Below, piece by piece: positions 1 through 10,481 of a stretch of 10,481 bases of DNA. A model generated the notes under the pieces. That model was given only the letters and a program-made list of their open reading frames with translations. It did no database searches and was not told where the DNA came from. Both the position numbers and the translations under genes were made by a program. Position 1 is the first letter of the stretch. Each line of letters begins with the position of its first letter. Source of the stretch: Desulfobacterales bacterium (GTDB lineage: Bacteria > Desulfobacterota > Desulfobacteria > Desulfobacterales > Desulfobacteraceae); contig JAKSAU010000148.1 of NCBI GenBank assembly GCA_022361535.1, positions 1 through 10,481 on the forward strand, given 5' to 3'.

Positions 1-584
1 GGAACGGTGATGACGATACTGTAGAGATCTTAGCCAAGCAAAATATAGAAGCGATCCGGGCATCAAAAGCCAAAACAGTTATTTTTGGCTGTCCTGAAGG
101 ATACTCCATGTTCAAGGAAGTCTATGCCGATCGTTTCGGACCCCTGGAGTTCGAGTTGGTACATATCACAGAGTTCCTGGCCCAGGCACTTTCTAAAGCA
201 GATCTTGCGTTTAAATCCGAAAATAGTTCAACGGTAACCTTCCAGGATCCATGCCGCCTCGGACGCAGGGCAGGGATTTATGAGGCTCCGCGGGACCTGA
301 TCAACCAGGTTGAAGGGGTTGAACTTGCAGAGATGGAGCACAACCGGGAAAATGCCGTGTGTTGCGGGACCACCGGGTGGATGCAGTGTTCAACCTGCTC
401 CAAGCTCATGCAGATTCAGCGGCTTAAGGAAGCTGAAGCTGTCGGTGCCCAGACCATTGTAACGGCCTGTCCCAAGTGCCAGATTCATTTGACCTGCGCA
501 CAGAAAAACACAGACCATGCTATTGAGATTATTGACCTTGCCTCTTTTCTTACTAACCACCTGGTAAACCAGGATGGGGAATAA
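1..584 (+). CDS. HdrD/HdrB-like CCG-domain iron-sulfur protein, 3' end (5' truncated)
   Basis: The frame is open from base 3 to the TAA at 582-584, giving 193 visible residues; the start lies upstream of the window. The last CCG domain is complete: Cys at 252, Cys-Cys-Gly at 360-368 and CPKC at 468-479, spaced C-x35-CC-x34-C-x2-C, close to the family pattern CX31-39CCX35-36CXXC. Two further Cys (MQCSTC) lie between. The tail of an earlier CCG domain is visible at 90-101 as Cys-Pro-Glu-Gly, where the second Cys of CXXC is replaced by Gly. CCG domains bind the catalytic clusters of heterodisulfide reductase HdrB/HdrD and occur in GlpC- and LldE-like proteins. Immediately upstream of hdrA, it is probably the thiol-disulfide partner that accepts electrons from HdrA. 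The physiological disulfide is unknown, and other CCG-family subgroups cannot be excluded without the N-terminus. Confidence 0.8.
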   Translation, partial: NGDDDTVEILAKQNIEAIRASKAKTVIFGCPEGYSMFKEVYADRFGPLEFELVHITEFLAQALSKADLAFKSENSSTVTFQDPCRLGRRAGIYEAPRDLINQVEGVELAEMEHNRENAVCCGTTGWMQCSTCSKLMQIQRLKEAEAVGAQTIVTACPKCQIHLTCAQKNTDHAIEIIDLASFLTNHLVNQDGE

Positions 585-616
585 AAGAGCCAGGGGTTGA
601 ATCGGGAGTAATATAA

Positions 617-3600
617 ATGGGAAATACAAATAATATTCACGGGTCGGTAATGGTCGTTGGTTCCGGTATTGCCGGGATGCAGGCCGCTCTTGACCTGGCA
701 GATTCAGGATACCAGGTGCACCTGGTGGAAAAAAAGGCATCAATCGGCGGGGTCATGGCCCAGCTGGACAAGACCTTTCCCACCAATGACTGTGCCATGT
801 GAGTGATCTCACCTAAACTGGTCGAGGTCGGCCGGCATCTGAACATTGAACTGCACACCCTTTCCACGGTTGAATCCATTGACGGTGAACTGGGCAACTT
901 TGAAATTACCATCAAGCAGGCACCACGCTATGTGGATATGGACAAGTGTATTGCCTGTGGTGAATGTACGAAAAAATGTCCGGGCAAATGCCCTGATACT
1001 TTTAACGAAGGCCTGGTTAAGCGAAAAGCTGTCTATGTGGATTATCCCCAGGCCGTTCCGCTGAAATACGCCATTGATCCAAATTTTTGTATCAAACTTA
1101 AAAAGGATAAATGCGGGACCTGTGCCAAGATCTGTCCCACAGGCGCCATTAATTATGAGGACACGGAAAAGACAGTTAAAATCAATGTCGGGTCCGTAAT
1201 TCTTGCTCCCGGGTTTAAACCTTTTGATCCTTCCGGACTGGATAACTATCAATACAACGCCTTTGATAATGTTGTCACCAGTATTGAATACGAGCGGATT
1301 TTGTCTGCAGGCGGTCCAACGGGTGGGCATATCGAGGTGGCACCGGATAAACGCCAGCCTAAGAAAATTGCCTGGTTGCAGTGCGTGGGCTCAAGAGACC
1401 AGAACAAATGCGGAAACGGATACTGTTCTTCGGTCTGCTGTATGTATGCAGTAAAAGAGGCCATGATGACTGCCGACCATGTGGATGGTGAATTTCAAGC
1501 CTCTATTTTCCTGATGGATATGCGGACCTATGGCAAAGATTTTGAAAAATACTATGAGCGGGCCAAAAATGAAGGTGTCCGCTTTGTGCGTTCCAGAATT
1601 CATACCATTACGGAAAACGAAGACAAAAGCCTTGACTGTACATATGTGACCGAAGAAGGCCGCAATGTGGTGGAAACCTTTGACATGGTAGTTCTGTCCG
1701 TTGGGATGGAAACCCCTGCGGAACTTGCCGCAGAGGTTGAAAACATGGGCGTTAAGCTCAACGATGACCGGTTTGTCGAAACATCAAGCTTTGCACCGGT
1801 AGCCACCAGCCGCGAAGGTGTCTTTGTCTGCGGAGCACTCCAGGAACCCAAGGACATACCTATTTCGGTCATGGAAGCTTCCGCAGCTGCCTGTGATGCA
1901 GGCGCATGTCTGACAAAGGCACGCGGAACGCTTACCCGGACCAAAACTTATCCTCAAGAAAAAGCCGTTGATATCGAAGAGCCCCGTATCGGTGTTTTTG
2001 TCTGTAACTGCGGAACCAACATAGGCGGGATCGTTGATGTTCCTGCCGTGGCAGAGTATGCAAGAACGCTTCCCAATGTCGTCTATGTCCAGGAAAATAT
2101 GTTTACCTGTTCCCAGGACACCCAGGATAAACTAAAGGAAGTGGTTGAGGAACAGGGCTTAAATCGTGTTGTTGTGGCGGCCTGTACCCCGAGAACCCAT
2201 GAAGCACTTTTCCAGGAAACTCTCAAGGATGCAGGGCTTAATAAATATTTGATCGAAATGGCCAATATCCGTAACCAGTGCTCCTGGGTTCATGCCAAAG
2301 AACCGGAACTGGCCACTGAGAAATCAAAAGACCTGGTAAGGATTGCCGTGGCTAAGGCGGCACTTATGACGCCACTTTCCCAGCCTGAAGTCGGGATTAC
2401 CCAAAAAGGGCTGGTCATCGGCGGCGGTGTAGCCGGCATGACAGCGGCACTTGGTATGGCAGACCAGGGATATCAAACATATCTTATCGAACAGGGGGAA
2501 GACCTTGGCGGTTATGCACTGACCCTGGATTATACCTGGAAAGGTGAACCCATTGCCGAGAATGTAAAAAAGATCGTGGCTGATGTCCGGGCCCATGACA
2601 ATATAGAGATCCTGACCAATTCGGCTGTTACAGATACCAAAGGCTTTGTGGGTAACTTTAAAACAAAAGTCAACCAGGGCGGAACTGAAAAAGAGTTGGA
2701 ACACGGTGCTGTGGTCATAGCAACAGGAGCCGGAGCAGGGCTGCCCAACGAATATCTTTACGGCCAGGATGACAGGGTGTTTACCCATGTAGATCTTGAC
2801 CCGGCATTGAGGGAAAAGCCCGAACTGCTTGAAGATGCCAATTCAGCCGTATTTATCCAATGCGTTGGGTCAAGGGAACCCCAGCGGCCATATTGCTCCA
2901 AGGTTTGCTGCACCCATTCCATCCAGACAGCGCTCAGGTTCAAAGAAAAGAACCCGGATATGGATGTCTATATCCTGTACCGGGATATCCGTACCTATGG
3001 ACAGCGTGAGCGTGTGTACCGCGAAGCAAGGGATAAAGGCATCATTTTTATCCGTTACTCCCCGGATGAGAAACCATCGGTTGCTGTGGGCGAAACCAGC
3101 CTTGATATAAAAGTTAAAGAACGGATCCTGGGGTTTGACGTCAGCATCCCTGCAGATCTTCTCATTCTGGCAACACCGATTGTGGCTGAAGGGAATGACG
3201 AGTTAGCCCAGAAATTCAAGTTGACCCTGAACGACGATAAATTTTTCATGGAAGCACATGCTAAGCTCAGACCTGTAGATTTTTCCACAGACGGTGTGTT
3301 CCTTTGCGGCACGGCCCATTACCCAAAACCTGTGGAAGAGTGTATTGCCCAGGCCAAGGCTGCGGCATCAAGAGCCACAGTTGTTCTTTCTAAGCAAAGC
3401 GTGACTGTAGACGGGGTTGTATCACGGGTTAAAGAAGAATTATGCCGGGGCTGCGGTGCCTGCGAAGAGGCTTGTGCATTTGGAGCCATTGAGGTGGTTG
3501 AAAATGAAGCTGGTGTAAATATCGCCGTGGTTCAGCAGGCGCTTTGCAAAGGCTGTTCTGCCTGTTCCTCAGCTTGCCCCACAGGTGCTGCAGGGGTTTA

Positions 3601-3655
3601 CCATTATGATAATGAAGTGCTGGCAATGGTAGAAGCCGCACTGGAAGAAGGATAG
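617..3655 (+). CDS. hdrA: Fused double-length HdrA (selenoprotein), 1012 aa
   Basis: Iron-sulfur flavoprotein of the heterodisulfide reductase A family, the flavin-based electron-bifurcating subunit of soluble Hdr complexes. Start ATG 617 follows GGGAG (604-608) with 8 nt spacing. TGA at 800-802 is read as Sec62 in the conserved segment D-C-A-M-U-V-I-S-P-K, where homologues usually have Cys. First half (1 to about 453): FAD motif GSGIAG near residues 15-20, Sec62, an inserted ferredoxin domain (C111/114/117/121 and C158/166/169/173, with an extra CPGKCP), and the CVGSRD...YC..VCC cluster motif. Second half (about 454-1012): the HdrA N-terminal domain starting [13 protein letters not shown], a second FAD motif GGGVAG (602-607) without the Cys/Sec segment or inserted ferredoxin, then two [4Fe-4S] sites (C943/946/949/953 and C977/980/983/987). 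Single HdrA proteins are about 650 aa, so this is a two-module fusion. TAG stop; mvhD starts 5 nt later. Confidence 0.93.
800..839 (+). promoter_or_regulatory. Sec UGA codon with candidate SECIS hairpin (hdrA fused)
   Basis: The TGA at 800-802 is followed by two mutually exclusive hairpins. The first pairs CTGGTC (818-823) with GGCCGG (830-835) around a 6-nt loop GAGGTC, 21 nt after TGA, with two wobble pairs. The second pairs GAGGTC (824-829) with GGCATC (834-839) around loop GGCC, 27 nt after TGA, with one G-A mismatch. The second sits at the position of the better hairpin in the paralogous hdrA at 4260. Both distances suit bacterial SECIS elements bound by SelB. Base pairing was worked out by hand and no folding energy was computed. 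Confidence 0.6.
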
Positions 3656-3660
3656 TAGAT

Positions 3661-4077
3661 ATGGAATTTAATCCGCAAATTATCACTTTTGCCTGCAACT
3701 GGTGCTCTTATTCTGCGGCAGATCTTGCGGGCGTAAGCCGGTTTCAGTATCCGCCTAACATGCGGATCATCCGGGTGATGTGCTCAGGCGGGATTACCCC
3801 CAATTATATTCTCAAAGCTTTTGAAAAGGGGGCGGACGGGGTCCTGGTGTCCGGCTGACACATGGGAGACTGCCATTACCTGGATGGTAATGTAAAAGCA
3901 ACCAAAACCTTTGAGATGACAAAAAAACTTTTAGACCTGCTGGGCATTGATACCAACAGGGTCCGGCTGGAATGGATTTCATCGGCAGAAGGCAATAAAT
4001 TTGCCGATGTGGCCAACGAATTTACCGAACAAGTAAAAGCTTTGGGGCCGGCGAACATTAAGCCCCAGGCGGCGTAA
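3661..4077 (+). CDS. mvhD: MvhD-type [2Fe-2S] electron-transfer subunit, selenoprotein (copy 1)
   Basis: A 138-residue MvhD-family protein, the small subunit that carries electrons from a hydrogenase or formate dehydrogenase to HdrA. The methanogen homologue is about 140 aa. Start ATG 3661 has GAAGGA (3647-3652) 8 nt upstream, overlapping the end of hdrA. Conserved positions: C12 and C15 in C-N-W-C-S-Y, C41 in R-V-M-C-S-G-G, Sec66 (TGA 3856-3858) in V-S-G-U-H-M-G-D-C, and C71. These positions are expected to ligate the [2Fe-2S] cluster. Sec is known in some MvhD/VhuD proteins at the G-G-C/U-H position. No MvhA or MvhG hydrogenase subunits are present in the window, so the common label 'F420-non-reducing hydrogenase subunit D' would mislead. 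Its donor is probably the FdhAB encoded downstream or another dehydrogenase. TAA stop; the next hdrA starts 17 nt later. Confidence 0.94.
3856..3892 (+). promoter_or_regulatory. Sec UGA codon with SECIS hairpin (mvhD copy 1)
   Basis: TGA 3856-3858 is followed, 22 nt later, by the apical loop of a perfect 7-bp hairpin: CATTACC (3874-3880) pairs with GGTAATG (3886-3892) around loop TGGAT. The spacing and loop size fit bacterial SECIS elements. mvhD copy 2 has a hairpin of identical geometry with a compensatory change in its outer pair. Confidence 0.85.
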
Positions 4078-4094
4078 GTTTTAGGAGAGCGAAA

Positions 4095-5633
4095 ATGACA
4101 ACAGACATACTTGTCCTTGGGGGCGGTATTGCCGGTATCCAGGCATCCCTGGATCTGGCGGAAATGGGTTTCAAGGTTCACCTGGTGGAACGGCTTCCCT
4201 CCATTGGCGGGAAAATGGCCCAACTTGACAAAACATTTCCCACCAACGACTGCGCCATCTGAATCCTGTCGCCTAAGATGCTGGATGTCGGTCGACATCC
4301 CAATATTACGCTGATGGCCTACTGCGAGCTGACCGCCCTTGACGGTGAGGCTGGCAATTTTACTGCAAAAGTGCTCAAAAAAGCACGGTATGTGGATGCT
4401 GACAAGTGCACTGGTTGTGGTGCCTGTGCAGAAGTCTGTCCCACCCCTGTTGTGGACCTTTACAACGAAGGCCATGCCTTCCGTAAAGCAGTATACTCCT
4501 GGTTTGCACAGGGGATTCCTTCCACCCATGCCATTGACCCGGACCACTGCCGGGTAATCCAAGGTAAAAAATGTGGGGTATGTGCCAAGAAATGCCAGGC
4601 TGAAGCCATTGATTTTGAGCAGAAGGACGAAACGGTTGAACTTAATGTCGGTGCGGTGGTTGTCGCCACTGGATATGATATTTTTGATCCGGGTAAACTG
4701 CCTGAATACAGGTACAATTCCCTGGATAATGTCATCACTGCCATGGAGTTTGAGCGTTTCCTGTCTGCATCAGGTCCTACCGAAGGTCATATCTATCGTC
4801 CCTCAGACCGGAAGGTAAAGGCTGAAAAAGCTGATACGCAAAAAGCACTTAAAAAGTCCGCCAAAGGCCTTACCCGTTTTGAAAAGAAACATGGTATGGA
4901 TTCAGAGGCCTTCCTTCAAGGCTTGACGACCCATAGTATTGACCTGACCGAAGACCTTGCCAAAGATGCTGAAAAGTGGGCGGCAAAAACCAAGGCTCAC
5001 AAAGATTTGGAGAACAACTTTAAAGCATTAGAGGCCAAGGTAGATAAAATTACTACGGCAAAGAAACTTGCCTTTATTCAGTGCGTGGGCTCCCGGGACT
5101 TAAGATTTTACCCGTTTTGTTCCGGTTACTGCTGCATGCATAGTATCAAGGAAGCCATCATTGCCCATGAGCATGACAATGATACGGAATCTGTCATTTT
5201 TGGAATGGATATTCGTGCTGTAGGCAAGGGGTTTGAAGAATATAAGATCCGTGGTGGCAATGCTTCTCGAATTACATACAAACGGTCCCGCGTTGCTGAA
5301 ATTACCAAGGGTAACAATGAAGCCCCGGTTCTGATATACGAGGATACCGCCAGTCAAAAAATAGTCAAAGAGGAATTTGACCTGGTGATTCTGGCCACTG
5401 CCTGTGCACCAGTGAAAAATACCCCGGAGGTTGCCGAAACCTTAGGCATTGACCTGGATAAGTCTGGTTTTTTTAAGACGGAAGCTTCCAACCCTCTTGA
5501 TACCTCAAAGGACGGGGTCTTTGTCTGCGGTTGTGCCCACAGCCCCATGGATATTCCGGAATCTGTTGCCCAGGCAAGCTCTGCTGCAGCCCGGGCAGTC
5601 CAGACTGTGATGAAAGCCAAAAAGGTGTCTTAA
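4095..5633 (+). CDS. hdrA: HdrA-type flavoprotein, Sec-containing first half-module with helical insert, 512 aa
   Basis: Start ATG 4095 has AGGAG (4083-4087) 7 nt upstream. TGA 4260-4262 encodes Sec56 in D-C-A-I-U-I-L-S-P-K, matching Sec62 of the fused HdrA. Domains in order: N-terminal FAD motif GGGIAG; the [12 protein letters not shown] segment; inserted ferredoxin sites C105/108/111/115 and C152/160/163/167 (the last followed by Gln rather than the usual Pro); then CVGSRD and Y-C-C-M cluster motifs from residue 330. Unlike the fused protein it has about 80 extra Lys/Glu/Ala-rich residues, roughly 234-327, between G-H-I and I-Q-C, predicted to be helical. It lacks the HdrA N-terminal domain and the C-terminal ferredoxin, which are in the next gene 11 nt downstream. 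It therefore probably works as a heterodimer with that protein. The flavin role in bifurcation is inferred from the family. Confidence 0.92.
4260..4300 (+). promoter_or_regulatory. Sec UGA codon with SECIS hairpin (second hdrA)
   Basis: TGA 4260-4262 is followed by a perfect 7-bp stem, GGATGTC (4283-4289) with GACATCC (4294-4300), around the tetraloop GGTC, 27 nt after TGA. The G-rich start of the loop matches the GGUC type of the known E. coli fdhF element. Confidence 0.8.
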
Positions 5634-5644
5634 AGGGGGGAAAG
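5634..5644 (+). promoter_or_regulatory. Ribosome binding site fixing the start of the second half-module hdrA
   Basis: A purine run, AGGGGGGAAAG, lies directly between the TAA of the preceding hdrA and ATG 5645. It favours this start over an in-frame ATG at 5531, which would overlap the upstream gene by about 100 nt and add residues with no counterpart in the fused HdrA. Confidence 0.75.
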
Positions 5645-7333
5645 ATGAGCAAAGATGTCATGAAAATGTATGAAGAACCCCGTATCGGCGTGTTTGTCTG
5701 TGACTGCGGATCCAATATCGCAGGCCACCTGGATTGTTCTGACGTGGCTGAATATGCCAAGACGTTACCCCATGTGGCTTATGTCAAAGAAAATCTGTAT
5801 ACCTGTTCAGAATCCGGAATCGTTGAGATAAAGAACGCTATTAAGGATGAAAATCTGAACCGGGTATTGGTGGCTTCGTGTTCTCCAAGAACCCATCATC
5901 CGTTGTTTGCAAGCTCCTGCGCAGAAGCAGGGCTAAACCCTTATTTATTTGAGATGGTAAATATCAGGGACCAATGTTCCTGGGTGCACATGGGCAAACG
6001 CGAAGAGGCTACTGAAAAAGCCAAACACCTTATCAAGATGGGTGTGGCCAAAGCTGCCGGGTTGGAACCCCAGGAGGAAATCGAATCCACCTTAACTCGC
6101 AAGATCATGATTGTAGGTGGTGGTATTGCAGGATTATCTGCGGCCCAGGCCTTGGCTGACATGGAGCTTGACGTCCTTTTGGTTGAAAAGACCAAGAAAT
6201 TTGGCGGCCTGCTTCAGTCCATCGGCATCCTTGATACGGGTGAGACTGCTCAAGAGGCTCTGGACAGGGTGGTTGATGATGTTCAATCCCGTGACAATAT
6301 CACGTGTTATACCGGTTCAACTGTAAAATCCACAGGCGGCTATATTGGCAATTATGAGGTTGCCATCAATACGCCTGACGGCGAGGTGACAGAAAAAGTT
6401 GGCTCCATGGTGATCGCCACAGGTGCTGTGCCGTTAATTCCGGAAGGAATTTTCGGGTATGGTAATAAGGGTGTGATTACCTTGATGGAACTTGAGCAAG
6501 AGCTTAAGACAGATACACTTGAAAATGCCGGGTTTACCGGAAAACGCATGGTGTTTATCCAATGTGCAGGTGCCAGGAGTGCCAAAAAGGAATACTGCTC
6601 CAGGATCTGCTGCATGACTGCGGTTAAAAACGCCATGGCGGTTAAGAAAAAATATCCCCTGGCTGATGTCCGTGTCCTTTACCGTGATATGCAAATGTAC
6701 GGTACCCACAAAGAACAAATGCTCTGGGACGCAAGAGGGCTTGGAATTAGGTTTGATGTCTACTCCCCTGACAATCCCCCTGTTGTTGAAGAAGGTAAAG
6801 TTTCTTATTTCCAGACGGTAACCGGTCAGGATCTGACACTGGAAACAGATCTTGTTGTTTTGTCCACGCCGCTGACATCCAGGAAAGGAACTGGCGAGCT
6901 TGCCAATATGCTCAGAGTTCCCACAGATGCAAACGGGTTCTTCTTAGAAGCCCATGCCAAGCTACGGCCCCTTGATTTTGCTGCTGACGGTATTTTTGTG
7001 GCAGGATCCGGGCGTTATCCTGCAACAGCCACTGAAGCCCGTACTCAAGGTATCGGCGTTGCCTCAAGGGTGGCAGCCATCCTGTTTAAGGAAAAACTTG
7101 TAAAAAGCGCTATTGTGGCCCAGATTAACCCGGACACATGTGTGGGGTGCATGGCATGCCTGCCTATGTGTCCGTACGAAGCCATTACTTTTGACAATGA
7201 CAGTCATACCTGCCGGATCAACGAAATTCTGTGCAAGGGCTGCGGCAATTGTGCAGCTACCTGCCCATGTCATTCTGCGATGCTCAGGGGGTTTAAACCG
7301 GACCAGTTATTGGCACAAATAGGCGCCGCGTAA
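5645..7333 (+). CDS. hdrA: HdrA-type flavoprotein, second half-module with C-terminal ferredoxin, 562 aa
   Basis: This is the stand-alone equivalent of residues about 454-1012 of the fused HdrA: both share [10 protein letters not shown] followed by an HdrA N-terminal domain. Visible Cys in that domain are C19, C21, C54, C79 and C111 (D-Q-C-S-W-V-H). An FAD motif GGGIAG follows at 158-163, then Q-C-A-G-A-R...Y-C-S-R-I-C-C-M, and two C-terminal [4Fe-4S] sites, C499/502/505/509 and C530/533/536/540. There is no Sec or Cys at the active segment after the first FAD strand, and no inserted ferredoxin, so its flavin site differs from that of the preceding protein. Its likely job is to pair with the 512-residue HdrA and relay electrons through the C-terminal clusters, possibly to or from ferredoxin. 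TAA stop; 63 nt precede mvhD copy 2. Confidence 0.92.
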   Translation: MSKDVMKMYEEPRIGVFVCDCGSNIAGHLDCSDVAEYAKTLPHVAYVKENLYTCSESGIVEIKNAIKDENLNRVLVASCSPRTHHPLFASSCAEAGLNPYLFEMVNIRDQCSWVHMGKREEATEKAKHLIKMGVAKAAGLEPQEEIESTLTRKIMIVGGGIAGLSAAQALADMELDVLLVEKTKKFGGLLQSIGILDTGETAQEALDRVVDDVQSRDNITCYTGSTVKSTGGYIGNYEVAINTPDGEVTEKVGSMVIATGAVPLIPEGIFGYGNKGVITLMELEQELKTDTLENAGFTGKRMVFIQCAGARSAKKEYCSRICCMTAVKNAMAVKKKYPLADVRVLYRDMQMYGTHKEQMLWDARGLGIRFDVYSPDNPPVVEEGKVSYFQTVTGQDLTLETDLVVLSTPLTSRKGTGELANMLRVPTDANGFFLEAHAKLRPLDFAADGIFVAGSGRYPATATEARTQGIGVASRVAAILFKEKLVKSAIVAQINPDTCVGCMACLPMCPYEAITFDNDSHTCRINEILCKGCGNCAATCPCHSAMLRGFKPDQLLAQIGAA

Positions 7334-7396
7334 AAAATGTTTGAATGGCAATAAAAATTCTCGTCCATTTTGGAGATTGAATTTAAGGAAGATAAT
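7334..7396 (+). other. Longest intergenic gap of the operon (63 nt)
   Basis: An AT-rich stretch between hdrA and mvhD copy 2. It contains the ribosome binding site AAGGA (7385-7389), 7 nt before ATG 7397. Short complementary tracts (AAAATG and CATTTT) exist but are far apart and weak. I see no G+C-rich hairpin with a T run and no convincing promoter boxes, so the operon probably reads through. Confidence 0.5.
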
Positions 7397-7831
7397 ATGA
7401 GTGATCAAAATTTTGAACCCAATATCATTTGCTTTTTGTGTACGTGGTGAGCGTATGCCGCTGCTGACCTGGCTGGGGTCAGTCGTATGCAGTATCCTGC
7501 AAATATCCGGATTATCCGGGTGATGTGTTCGGGAAGTGTCTCTCCCCATCACGTGCTCCGTGCCTTTCAACAGGGTGTTGACGGCGTGTTTGTGGGTGGC
7601 TGACATCTGTCAGAATGCAATTACCTGTATGGTAATTATAGTACTGAAAAAAGAGTAAATGTCCTTTCCCAGATGATGGAATTTACAGGTATTGAAAAAG
7701 AGCGGCTGCGGGCTCGTTGGGTTTCCTCTGCTGAAGCACCTGAGTTTGTGGAAGAAGTAAATGCTTTTATTGATACGCTCAAAGAACTTGGGCCGTCGCC
7801 CTTAAAGCCAGAAACGGAAGAGACAGCATGA
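7397..7831 (+). CDS. mvhD: MvhD-type [2Fe-2S] subunit with two selenocysteines (copy 2)
   Basis: A 144-residue MvhD whose reading frame crosses two TGA codons. TGA 7448-7450 is Sec18 in [15 protein letters not shown], aligning with the second Cys of C-N-W-C-S-Y in copy 1. TGA 7601-7603 is Sec69 in V-G-G-U-H-L-S-E-C, aligning with Sec66 of copy 1. Other conserved positions are C12, C15, C44 (R-V-M-C-S-G) and C74. Similarity to copy 1 continues across both TGAs and to the C-terminus (R-W-V-S-S-A-E against E-W-I-S-S-A-E), which argues against a broken gene. Start ATG 7397 is supported by AAGGA at 7385-7389. The real stop is also TGA (7829-7831), overlapping the fdhB start as ATGA. Position next to fdhBA suggests that it links formate dehydrogenase to HdrA. 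Sec at the G-G-C/U-H site has precedent; I do not recall a described MvhD with Sec also in the CXXC motif. Confidence 0.9.
7448..7482 (+). promoter_or_regulatory. First Sec UGA of mvhD copy 2 with SECIS hairpin
   Basis: TGA 7448-7450 is followed by a perfect 6-bp stem, CTGACC (7464-7469) with GGTCAG (7477-7482), around the 7-nt loop TGGCTGG. The loop begins 19 nt after TGA, within the range for bacterial SECIS elements. Confidence 0.75.
7601..7637 (+). promoter_or_regulatory. Second Sec UGA of mvhD copy 2 with SECIS hairpin
   Basis: TGA 7601-7603 is followed by a perfect 7-bp stem, AATTACC (7619-7625) with GGTAATT (7631-7637), around loop TGTAT, 22 nt after TGA. Distance, stem length and loop length equal those of mvhD copy 1. 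The outermost pair is A-T here and C-G there, a compensatory change. Confidence 0.85.
7828..7831 (+). promoter_or_regulatory. ATGA stop-start overlap coupling mvhD copy 2 to fdhB-like gene
   Basis: The ATG of the downstream gene (7828-7830) overlaps the TGA stop of mvhD (7829-7831). GGAAG at 7816-7820, 7 nt before the ATG, is the likely ribosome binding site. The overlap suggests translational coupling and similar stoichiometry. Confidence 0.8.
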
Positions 7832-8631
7832 TTGAGACAATAAAAGAGCATGTCGCAGGCCTGCTGAAAGAAAAAAAGATCAAAGGGTTCATCGGCCTGA
7901 TCGAAAAGAACGGCCATGTGGCACCGCATTTGTTCCAAGCTGGTGAAAGTCTTGACGGATTCAGTCTTGGTGACCGGGAAAAGGCAGGGGATGCACGGTA
8001 TCCGTTGAATAAGACCCTGATAGCTGTTGCAAGGGCCTATCCTGATGATGTATTTGGCATCCTGGTCCGGGGCTGTGATGAGCGCGGGCTTTACGGGCTC
8101 TACCGGTTGAATCAGCTCAATGAAAACAAAGTGATTCCGGTTGGCTTTTCCTGTCCGGATGATCTGGCAAATGCCTGTGAGTGCAGAAAACCATGGCCTG
8201 ATGCGTTGGTCGCAGGAGAAAAGACCCAGGCGCCTGACGCCGTTCAGGTGGCTGACATGGACAGCAAAGGGCTTGCCGACCGGTTTGAATTCTGGACATC
8301 CCAGTTTCTTAAATGTGTAAAATGCTATGGCTGCCGGGACGTCTGCCCCATGTGTTTTTGCAAAGAATGCAGCCTGGAATGCGAAGACCTGGTTTCCAAA
8401 GGTGCGCTTCCTGTTGAAATTCCAGTCTTTCACCTGACCCGGGCCATGCACATGGCTGACCGGTGCATTGACTGCGGTCTGTGCGAAGAGGCTTGTCCGT
8501 CAGATATCCCTTTGCGGCTGCTTTATAAAAAGACAGGTCAAGTCATGGATACGGATTATGGATTCACTTCCGGGTTGAATAAAAATGAACGCTCTCCTTT
8601 GAGCATGATGGGACCGTCAAAAAAGGAATAA
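7828..8631 (+). CDS. fdhB: FdhB/FrhB-like iron-sulfur flavoprotein, formate dehydrogenase beta subunit
   Basis: A 267-residue protein between mvhD and fdhA. Residues about 1-150 resemble the FrhB/FdhB family, including the segment around C83 (G-C-D-E-R-G-L-Y-G-L) and V-I-P-V-G-F-S-C at about 102-109. This domain normally binds FAD. The C-terminal part holds iron-sulfur sites: C163/166/169/173 followed by Pro is a classic [4Fe-4S] motif, then a further cluster of Cys (176, 178, 181, 185), then C213/216/219/223 followed by Pro. The extra Cys group could bind another cluster, but this cannot be decided here. There is no signal peptide or membrane segment, so it is cytoplasmic. By position it would relay electrons from FdhA to MvhD; F420 use is not implied in a sulfate reducer. 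fdhA starts 2 nt after the TAA. The subunit name is inferred from context; the family assignment is moderately secure. Confidence 0.75.
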   Translation: MIETIKEHVAGLLKEKKIKGFIGLIEKNGHVAPHLFQAGESLDGFSLGDREKAGDARYPLNKTLIAVARAYPDDVFGILVRGCDERGLYGLYRLNQLNENKVIPVGFSCPDDLANACECRKPWPDALVAGEKTQAPDAVQVADMDSKGLADRFEFWTSQFLKCVKCYGCRDVCPMCFCKECSLECEDLVSKGALPVEIPVFHLTRAMHMADRCIDCGLCEEACPSDIPLRLLYKKTGQVMDTDYGFTSGLNKNERSPLSMMGPSKKE

Positions 8632-8633
8632 TC

Positions 8634-10481
8634 ATGGAGTACCAAACCACCCTGACCACCTGTACCTACTGCGGATGCGGGTGTAATTTTTTTCTTGAAA
8701 CCCTTGACGGGAAACTGATCAATACCATTCCCTGCAAAACCAGTCCGGTAAACGAGGGAAAGCTCTGTATCAAGGGATGGAATGTTCATCAATTTGTCCA
8801 GAGCGAAAGACGCCTTACCGCTCCGATGATACGCAAAGACGGTGAGTTGACTGAAGTGTCATGGGATGAAGCAATTTCCTATACTGCAGACCGTCTAAAG
8901 CAAATAAAAACAGACAACGGCAGCGACAGCATTGGTTTTTTTGCCTCGGCCAAAGTAACGAACGAGGAAAATTACCTGATGCAGAAGTTTGCAAGGGCAG
9001 CCATCGGCACCAATAACGTCGATCACTGCGCTCGATTGTGACATTCTTCCACTGTGGCAGGTCTTGCCGCAGCGTTTGGAAGTGGTGCCATGACAAATGC
9101 CGTAGATGAGCTGGCTGGTCTGACAGAAAAAGACACCATTTTTATTATTGGATCTAACACCGCAACAGCCCATCCTTTGGTGGCCACCCGGATTTTCAGG
9201 GCCCTTGAAAAAGGGGCACGCTTAGTGGTGGCAGATCCCAGGAAGAACCAGATTGCCGAATTTGCCGATCTCTATTTGCGGCAAAAGCCTGGAACCGATG
9301 TTGCCCTGCTCAACGGCATGATGAAAGTCATCATGGATCAAGGGCTGCAGGATCAGGCCTTTATTGACGGATGTACTGAAGAATTTGACGGATTCAAAGC
9401 TGTCATTGACAAGGTGGATCTTGATGAATGTGCTGCGGTTACAGGTCTCACTGCAAAGCAGATAAAAGAGGCTGCAGACCTTTACGGTTCTGCATCAAGA
9501 GCATCAATCATATACTGCATGGGTATTACTCAGCATACCAATGGGGTAGATAACGTAAAATCCCTTGCCAACCTTGCCATGATCACGGGCAATATCGGAA
9601 AAGAGGGTACTGGCGTGAATCCTCTGCGTGGCCAGAATAATGTTCAAGGGGCCTGCGATATGGGCGGCTTGCCAAATGTTCTCACAGGCTACCAGCCCGT
9701 TACATTAGGTGCAGCAACTAAAAAGTTTTCAGAAGCCTGGGGTGTGGATGAACTGCCTACCCATATCGGGTTGACCATCCCTGAAATGCTGTCAGGCATT
9801 GACGAGGATAAGGTCCATGCGCTGTGGATTATGGGAGAAAATCCTGTGGTCTCTGATCCTGATGCGGATCATGTGAAAAAGGCCTTTGAAAAAATAAATT
9901 TCCTGGTGGTCCAGGATATTTTCATGACTCCTACCGCCCAGATGGCAGACGTGGTGCTGCCGGGTGTTTCCTTTGCCGAAAAAGACGGTACCTTTGTGAA
10001 TACGGAGCGCAGAATCACAAGAGTAAGAAAGGCAGTAGAACCCAAAGGCGAAGCCAGGGCGGACTGGGAAATTATCCAGGATGTCTCCAATGCTTTTGGG
10101 TTTGATATGGCATATGAGAATGCAGAACAGATCTTTGATGAACTTGCTTCCCTGACACCGTCTTATGGTGGTGTGTCCTATCCCAGGCTGGAAGGAGAAG
10201 GGCTGCAGTGGCCGTGTCCGACACCTGAACATCCAGGTACCCCGTACCTTCACAAGGATGGGAAATTTGCCCGGGGCAAAGGACTGTTTCATGCTATTGA
10301 ATACAAAGGACCTGCTGAAAGCGTGGATGATGAATATCCGTTATGGATGACAACAGGCCGCGTTTATGCCCATTACCATACCGGCACCATGACACGAAAT
10401 TCAGTGGCCCTGGATACAGAAATCCGTGAAGGTGCACTTGAAATTCACCCTGAAGATGCCAAAGAACTTGGAATCTGTGAC
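8634..10481 (+). CDS. fdhA: Formate dehydrogenase catalytic subunit, selenoprotein (3' truncated)
   Basis: Molybdenum- or tungsten-bis-MGD formate dehydrogenase, interconverting formate and CO2; 616 residues are visible and the frame is open at the window end (E. coli FdhF is 715 aa). Start ATG 8634 follows AAAGGAA just upstream. Residues C10, C13, C17 and C45 (C-x2-C-x3-C-x27-C) bind the [4Fe-4S] cluster, and K47 matches the conserved Lys. TGA 9039-9041 is Sec136, followed by His137, in D-H-C-A-R-L-U-H-S-S-T-V-A-G-L, the known Sec-His active site. N-P-L-R332-G-Q-N-N-V-Q-G carries the conserved active-site Arg. The MGD-binding C-terminal domain begins near residue 570 (T-T-G-R-V-Y...H-T-G-T-M-T-R). 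There is no twin-arginine leader and no N-terminal ferredoxin extension, so this is the short cytoplasmic form. With FdhB-like and MvhD upstream it probably feeds electrons from formate to HdrA. Confidence 0.96.
9039..9072 (+). promoter_or_regulatory. Sec UGA codon with fdhF-type SECIS hairpin
   Basis: TGA 9039-9041 is followed by an 8-bp stem, CTGTGGCA (9052-9059) with TGCCGCAG (9065-9072) including one G-U pair, around loop GGTCT. The loop begins 18 nt after TGA. From memory, the E. coli fdhF element has the same 18-nt distance and a GGUC(U) loop encoding the same Val-Ala-Gly-Leu residues. Confidence 0.9.

Follow-up and report, generated by a model that had tools for sequence, protein, structure and literature searches.

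Among solved relatives, the [2Fe-2S] cluster of MvhD lies close to the bifurcating HdrA flavin, and the protein connects formate dehydrogenase or hydrogenase to HdrA (PMC12350162, PMC6019823). VhuD likewise carries electrons from a hydrogenase or a formate dehydrogenase to HdrABC (PMC6019823). The mechanism of electron transfer from the MvhD cluster to the HdrA flavin is described as unknown (PMC12350162). A 2026 inventory lists the delta subunit of F420-reducing hydrogenase or MvhD/VhuD (PF02662) with a CxxU motif and two selenocysteines (Sec), giving WP_012980414.1 as an example (PMC13188914, Table 1). The same inventory, which contains the CxxU motif in many entries, cites Wilting 1997 for multiple Sec in some archaeal FrhD/VhuD. 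According to a figure legend in PMC9622424, vhuD of M. maripaludis contains two TGA codons. In archaeal genes a single SECIS, as a rule in the 3' UTR, is stated to serve either one Sec codon or two (PMC9499178). In bacteria, FrhD and HdrA selenoproteins were reported from Syntrophobacter and others (PMC1794560), and Sec-containing mvhD1, 2, 3 and 5 from Desulfobacterium autotrophicum (PMC2702500). Bacterial Sec-MvhD/FrhD have thus long been known (see also PMC5109826); the passages considered here do not give two Sec for any one chain.

We analysed a stretch of 10,481 nucleotides from a Desulfobacterales bacterium (hereafter the window) and found in it an MvhD gene, at 7397-7831, with in-frame TGA codons at 7448 and 7601. 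We put the probability that both are decoded as Sec at roughly 0.86. The encoded protein resembles the VhuD of Methanococcales, which also belongs to PF02662 and has CxxU and two Sec (PMC13188914); at the codon level, the window gene has the same two features. The archaeal genes have one SECIS each (PMC9499178), whereas the window has an in-frame hairpin for each codon. As in the single-Sec bacterial FrhD/MvhD, the Sec gene lies beside hdrA (PMC1794560). The single-Sec bacterial MvhD of 12 loci from one of the phyla sampled below (that of genome G003) have one TGA, whereas the window has an extra one in CXXU. One further known system has 38% identity, but the window differs from it by an hdrA split over two genes and by an FdhB-like subunit whose match to FdhB is limited to the carboxy-terminal part.

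The MvhD sequences compared here have a single conserved CXXC, and the CxxU listed for archaea is therefore almost surely the CXXU site of the window. The preliminary description had suggested that this site may be undescribed. This no longer holds: with CxxU and two Sec in the inventory (PMC13188914) and two TGAs in vhuD of M. maripaludis (PMC9622424), the motif is not new to the family. What we add is the combination of the CXXU TGA with the second TGA in bacteria, beyond one clade; in the window, each of the two codons has its own SECIS-like hairpin. A bacterial double-Sec MvhD was not found in print in the accessible parts of the open-access literature, an absence that carries little weight.

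Gene content of the window

The genes of the window and the signals of mvhD copy 2 are as follows.

617..3655, + strand: hdrA-like gene, 1012 residues, with a TGA at 800 (N-D-C-A-M-U)
3661..4077, + strand: mvhD copy 1, one proposed Sec (TGA at 3856), with TGC (Cys) at 3703-3705 at the first site
4095..5633, + strand: hdrA, amino-terminal part, with a TGA at 4260 (N-D-C-A-I-U)
5645..7333, + strand: hdrA-like second part, without in-frame TGA
7385..7391, + strand: likely ribosome-binding site AAGGAAG ahead of the ATG at 7397, read from the sequence
7397..7831, + strand: mvhD copy 2 (FlpD/MvhD), 144 residues, proposed Sec at positions 18 and 69
7448..7450, + strand: first-site TGA, codon 18, in frame, in C-T-W-U (CXXU)
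7601..7603, + strand: second-site TGA, codon 69, in frame, in G-G-U-H; also TGA in copy 1
7829..7831, + strand: terminal TGA of mvhD copy 2, proposed stop, without SECIS-like hairpin
7828..8631, + strand: fdhB-like iron-sulfur subunit, 267 residues, with matches to solved FdhB chains
8634..10481, + strand: fdhA, formate dehydrogenase alpha subunit, with a TGA at 9039; runs off the window

The split hdrA (4095-7333) lies directly upstream of mvhD copy 2, whose terminal TGA overlaps the ATG of the next gene at 7828. FdhA was identified by TIGR01591 (797.9 bits). In the FdhB-like protein, residues 152-252 match the FdhB chain 9t1s_M (102.5 bits) and residues 150-238 match 7bkb_E (92.8 bits), and the first ~140 residues had no match in solved FdhB chains. 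The part of this subunit that handles F420 may thus be missing or replaced. The setting by FdhAB and HdrA that had been proposed for the gene is borne out, since formate dehydrogenase genes and the split hdrA adjoin it. Loci V and VI of D. autotrophicum are similarly arranged, with hdr and mvhD genes alongside those for formate dehydrogenase B and A (PMC2702500). There are six in-frame TGAs (800, 3856, 4260, 7448, 7601 and 9039) across five genes in this one 10.5-kb stretch, and both TGA-bearing HdrA-like proteins carry N-D-C-A-x-U.

The gene set fits FdhA, an FdhB-like subunit, MvhD and HdrA, and the products might form a single complex. In such a complex, MvhD copy 2 would sit between formate dehydrogenase (FdhA and the FdhB-like subunit) and the split HdrA, and would hand electrons on through a putative [2Fe-2S] site. 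It probably passes electrons between a formate-oxidising and an energy-coupling enzyme.

Both TGA codons fall on conserved cysteines

The reading frame of mvhD copy 2 has TGA at codons 18 and 69 and otherwise no in-frame stop before the terminal TGA. With the TGAs read as Cys, the protein matches PF02662 (FlpD) over the entire profile (1-123 of 123) with 177.2 bits against a cut-off of 22.3. It also matches chain 5odc_D (E = 2.2e-47) and has the fold of the solved MvhD chains. As first described, both in-frame TGAs lie at positions held by Cys or Sec in copy 1, which has Cys at the first site. They fall on two of the five Cys positions of the family (15, 18, 44, 69 and 74); by simple arithmetic, two TGAs placed at random would do so in only 10 of the 10,296 pairs of positions that 144 codons offer. 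Bacterial selenoproteins are recognised by in-frame TGAs that align with Cys of homologues, which is the case at both sites. They are also recognised by TGAs that are kept in relatives or swapped with Cys, and relatives show this both in DNA and as W in proteins (see below). In the proposed mechanism, UGA 7448 and UGA 7601 would each be decoded as Sec by means of its own in-frame hairpin, Sec would replace two of the five conserved Cys, and UGA 7829 would end translation.

Hairpins downstream of the TGA codons

We scanned for hairpins of at least 4 bp with a loop of 3-8 nt starting 16-37 nt after a TGA, and with G within the first two loop bases. Energies were ranked against all 398 TGA trinucleotides of the window, on both strands and with the sites themselves included. 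A hairpin lies downstream of each of the two codons, as had been claimed.

7463..7483, + strand: first-site SECIS-like hairpin GCUGACCU-GGCUG-GGGUCAGU, 8 bp, 20 nt after the TGA
7619..7637, + strand: second-site SECIS-like hairpin AAUUACC-UGUAU-GGUAAUU, 7 bp

The first-site hairpin (loop GGCUG) has -11.6 kcal/mol, an energy reached by 3 of the 398 TGAs. The second-site hairpin has -5.6 kcal/mol (reached by 31 of 398), and the equivalent one in copy 1 has -7.3 kcal/mol (23 of 398), the outer pairs of the two being A-U and C-G, respectively. At the first site of copy 1, where the codon is Cys, a hairpin of the same geometry has only -2.4 kcal/mol. The scan with the strict geometry found none at the terminal TGA (7829-7831). 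The TGAs of the window outside mvhD copy 2 (800, 3856, 4260 and 9039) each have a hairpin of this geometry.

Folding of the 53 nt after each codon gave z = -2.11 at 7601 (5 of 200 shuffles as good) and z = -0.90 at 7448, the latter not significant (39 of 200 shuffles as good). The Rfam search (E up to 5) matched a SECIS family solely at fdhA (SECIS_3, 42.3 bits), below that family's cut-off of 63, and at neither mvhD site. A hairpin over the same A-D-L-A-G codons occurs in nine first-site rows, i.e., the window and eight others. The consensus fold of all 21 first-site regions was without structure (0.0 kcal/mol). Only the nine rows holding GACCTGGCNGG have a common fold (-6.2 kcal/mol), so that the first-site hairpin is no single conserved element. 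Among the four first-site loci from the phylum of genome G001, the strict hairpin is weak (ranks 44/248, 54/185, 74/343 and 59/289), and the scan found none at the second TGA of three double-TGA loci (L120-L122, see below). The hairpins therefore support, without proving, decoding at the first site.

Relatives in protein databases

We tallied 254 relatives from three protein searches, taking the best 120 of 6360, 3634 and 7652 matches, respectively. Named relatives, e.g., Syntrophobacterales, Desulforhabdus and Desulfoglaeba, would fit a source of the Desulfobacterota type. Cys is present at all of positions 15, 18, 44, 69 and 74 in 236 of them. Ten (P0001-P0010) have Trp at both 18 and 69; they are the ten best listed relatives and are 69-85% identical to the window protein. 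Three have Trp at 69 only (P0014, P0046 and P0055), one has Ser at 74, and four begin after the first site. The search that used an archaeal MvhD added 118 rows, which have Cys at the first and the second site. The plasmid collection yielded one relative, from Ilyobacter polytropus, with 48.8% identity across 90% of the query, and a search of viral contigs found no relative.

In P0001-P0010, Trp is confined to positions 17, 18 and 69 and, in most of them, 108; the sole exceptions are two Trp in the extended tail of P0007. These proteins are encoded on contigs of which the longest measure 512-1227 nt. Going by the protein letters, the simplest account of W at both 18 and 69 is TGA translated with genetic code 4. 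In the window and these ten relatives, Cys15, Trp17, Tyr20 and the A-A-A-D-L-A-G segment, all before Met31, are invariant. The four relatives that begin after the first site (P0015, P0031, P0037 and P0254) start exactly at Met31, are 115-116 residues long and have Cys at the second site. Their start would fit a TGA at the first site alone, and they may have kept it.

TGA-containing loci in sampled genomes

The preliminary description called for a search for TGA at the CXXC site in other genomes. We searched 400, 297 and 398 genomes of the phyla of G001, G002 and G003, respectively; the three phyla had been reached through unrelated loci. First-site TGAs were present in at least 20 loci of 16 genomes from two of the sampled phyla, four of these loci having TGA at both sites and 16 in CXXU alone. 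The reading of the gene as a two-Sec MvhD thus gains from relatives in which both sites, CXXU included, recur as TGA.

In the phylum of G001, 97 of the 400 genomes had an MvhD match. Its 12 listed TGA rows comprise four with TGA at the first site only, five at the second only, and three at or past the end of the protein. The first-site loci (L070, L071, L072 and L075, from three genomes) read C-H-W-U and have Cys at the second site. L066, L067 and L068 were rejected as Sec sites: their TGAs, at or past the carboxy-terminal end, are ordinary stops. In the phylum of G003, 159 of the 398 genomes had a match, and all 12 TGA loci fetched, out of several dozen listed, carry TGA at the second site. 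No MvhD with two TGAs was found among the matches listed for these two phyla. In the phylum of G002 (81 of 297 genomes with a match), we took 20 of the 23 listed TGA rows, leaving out G923:C10:35016, G1043:C478 and G849:C315. Four of the 20 have TGA at both sites, 12 at the first only and four at the second only. In-frame TAA or TAG codons occur inside the MvhD match of L050, L051, G175:C7:49228-49617 and G921:C65:37143-37556, and are probably natural ends.

The four double-TGA loci (L120-L123) come from four genomes, and L120-L122 are close kin. In these three, the double-TGA mvhD lies directly 3' of the two genes of a split HdrA. The two products are related to the split HdrA of the window (58-61% and 47-48% identity), a sign that the MvhD proteins have a partner in common. 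The gene order of the three loci resembles the window: CCG protein, HdrA part 1, HdrA part 2, double-TGA MvhD. In L123, the double-TGA mvhD is preceded by an open frame of 1563 residues (429-5120) that joins HdrA with an apparent NAD(P)-oxidoreductase insert. This frame is slightly like the HdrL fusions described in D. autotrophicum (PMC2702500).

Ten of the 16 genomes with a first-site TGA were tested for the Sec machinery. SelB was above the cut-off in eight and a strong tRNA-Sec (at least 68 bits) was present in seven, the completeness of the assemblies being unstated. Among the four double-TGA genomes, SelB passed in three and tRNA-Sec was strong in two. In 14 well-known genomes used as controls, SelB passed in two and tRNA-Sec in five; a bare tRNA-Sec pass is therefore weak and we counted only strong matches. 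For the source genome of the window, the TGAs at 800, 3856, 4260 and 9039 give indirect support for a Sec machinery.

Evolution of the two sites

We built a first tree of 70 rows with both Sec columns omitted. The window falls into a single clade (support 100/99.6) with the ten W/W relatives and the four that start at Met31. The Met31 relatives are scattered through it. This clade adjoins rows with Sec at the second site only (joint group 96/74), inside rows with Cys at both sites. Such nesting makes the order Cys/Cys, Cys/Sec, Sec/Sec (first/second site) likely for the window clade. The second site seems to have reverted to Cys in places while the first was kept.

For a second tree, of 86 rows, we added 26 loci of the phylum of G002 and dropped ten rows: the four Met31 relatives, in which the first site is unread, and P0055, P0022, P0097, L037, L056 and L085. 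By parsimony, the first-site state requires at least three changes on this tree and the double state three. Trees with all double-Sec rows in one clade were rejected (p-AU 1.2e-49), as were those with all first-site rows in one clade (p-AU 1.6e-39). A single clade of the window group with L120-L122, L125-L127, L133, L134, L139, L070-L072 and L075 was not rejected (p-AU 0.103), nor, in the earlier 70-row test, was one that joined L070-L072 and L075 to the window group (0.221). It would be simplest to assume that bacteria gained CXXU-Sec two or three times; the alignment has 129 columns and leaves many forks unresolved. Alternatively, CXXU-Sec may have been gained once, early on, and then lost repeatedly.

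Proposed decoding and possible role of the two codons

Could only UGA 7601 be decoded? Translation would then stop at UGA 7448, or an internal start at Met31 (M-Q-Y-P) would yield a protein that lacks the CXXU segment. Residue 31 is indeed Met, four database relatives begin exactly there, and folding of the 53 nt behind 7448 gave no significant result. Yet a gene caller that takes the upstream TGA as a stop yields the same Met31 starts. A non-coding leader would not keep Cys15, Trp17, Tyr20 and A-A-A-D-L-A-G invariant upstream of Met31, and the first-site hairpin ranks 3 of 398. We therefore regard this reading as improbable. Still less credit is due to the idea that TGA 7448 is a sequencing error or that the gene is a decaying pseudogene. 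TGA does differ from TGC or TGT by a single base, but copy 2 has no further in-frame stop, W occurs at the same two sites in ten relatives, and 16 genomes have TGA at this codon, in 20 loci.

A further alternative concerns function rather than decoding. Both codons may encode Sec while at least one of the residues is no cluster ligand, but a free selenol, e.g., a redox partner of Cys15 or a group near the flavin path. There are five conserved Cys for the four ligand places of a [2Fe-2S] cluster, CxxU is common in the inventory (PMC13188914), and cluster-to-flavin transfer is described as of unknown mechanism (PMC12350162). On the other hand, the Sec of heterodisulfide reductases is stated to ligate Fe-S clusters (PMC9499178). 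The modelled MvhD strands end at residues 15, 42 and 68; from this, the five Cys/Sec would probably lie near one end of the sheet and line the cluster site, so that any of them could be a ligand. We consider the free selenol a serious candidate, though at somewhat less than even odds. Slightly more doubtful, and put forward tentatively, is the fuller proposal that a single [2Fe-2S] cluster, at the electron entry to flavin-based bifurcation, has two selenolate ligands, and that this arose repeatedly in bacteria and also in methanogens, the bacterial genes having one SECIS in the coding region per codon. The two proposed Sec codons of copy 2, each with its own hairpin, are about 150 nt apart. 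A lower cluster potential or altered electron gating, as the preliminary description suggested, would be a hypothetical effect of the selenium.

The two-Sec form of MvhD, known from methane-making archaea, would thus occur in more than one bacterial group. Genes with two TGAs are liable to truncated annotation, because two stops need to be read through. The natural bacterial homologues with Cys/Cys, Cys/TGA, TGA/Cys and TGA/TGA are a ready series to test which of the residues matter. If the proposal of two selenolate ligands is true, selection for selenium at just these two positions among the five Cys would mark the residues that matter for electron transfer to HdrA.
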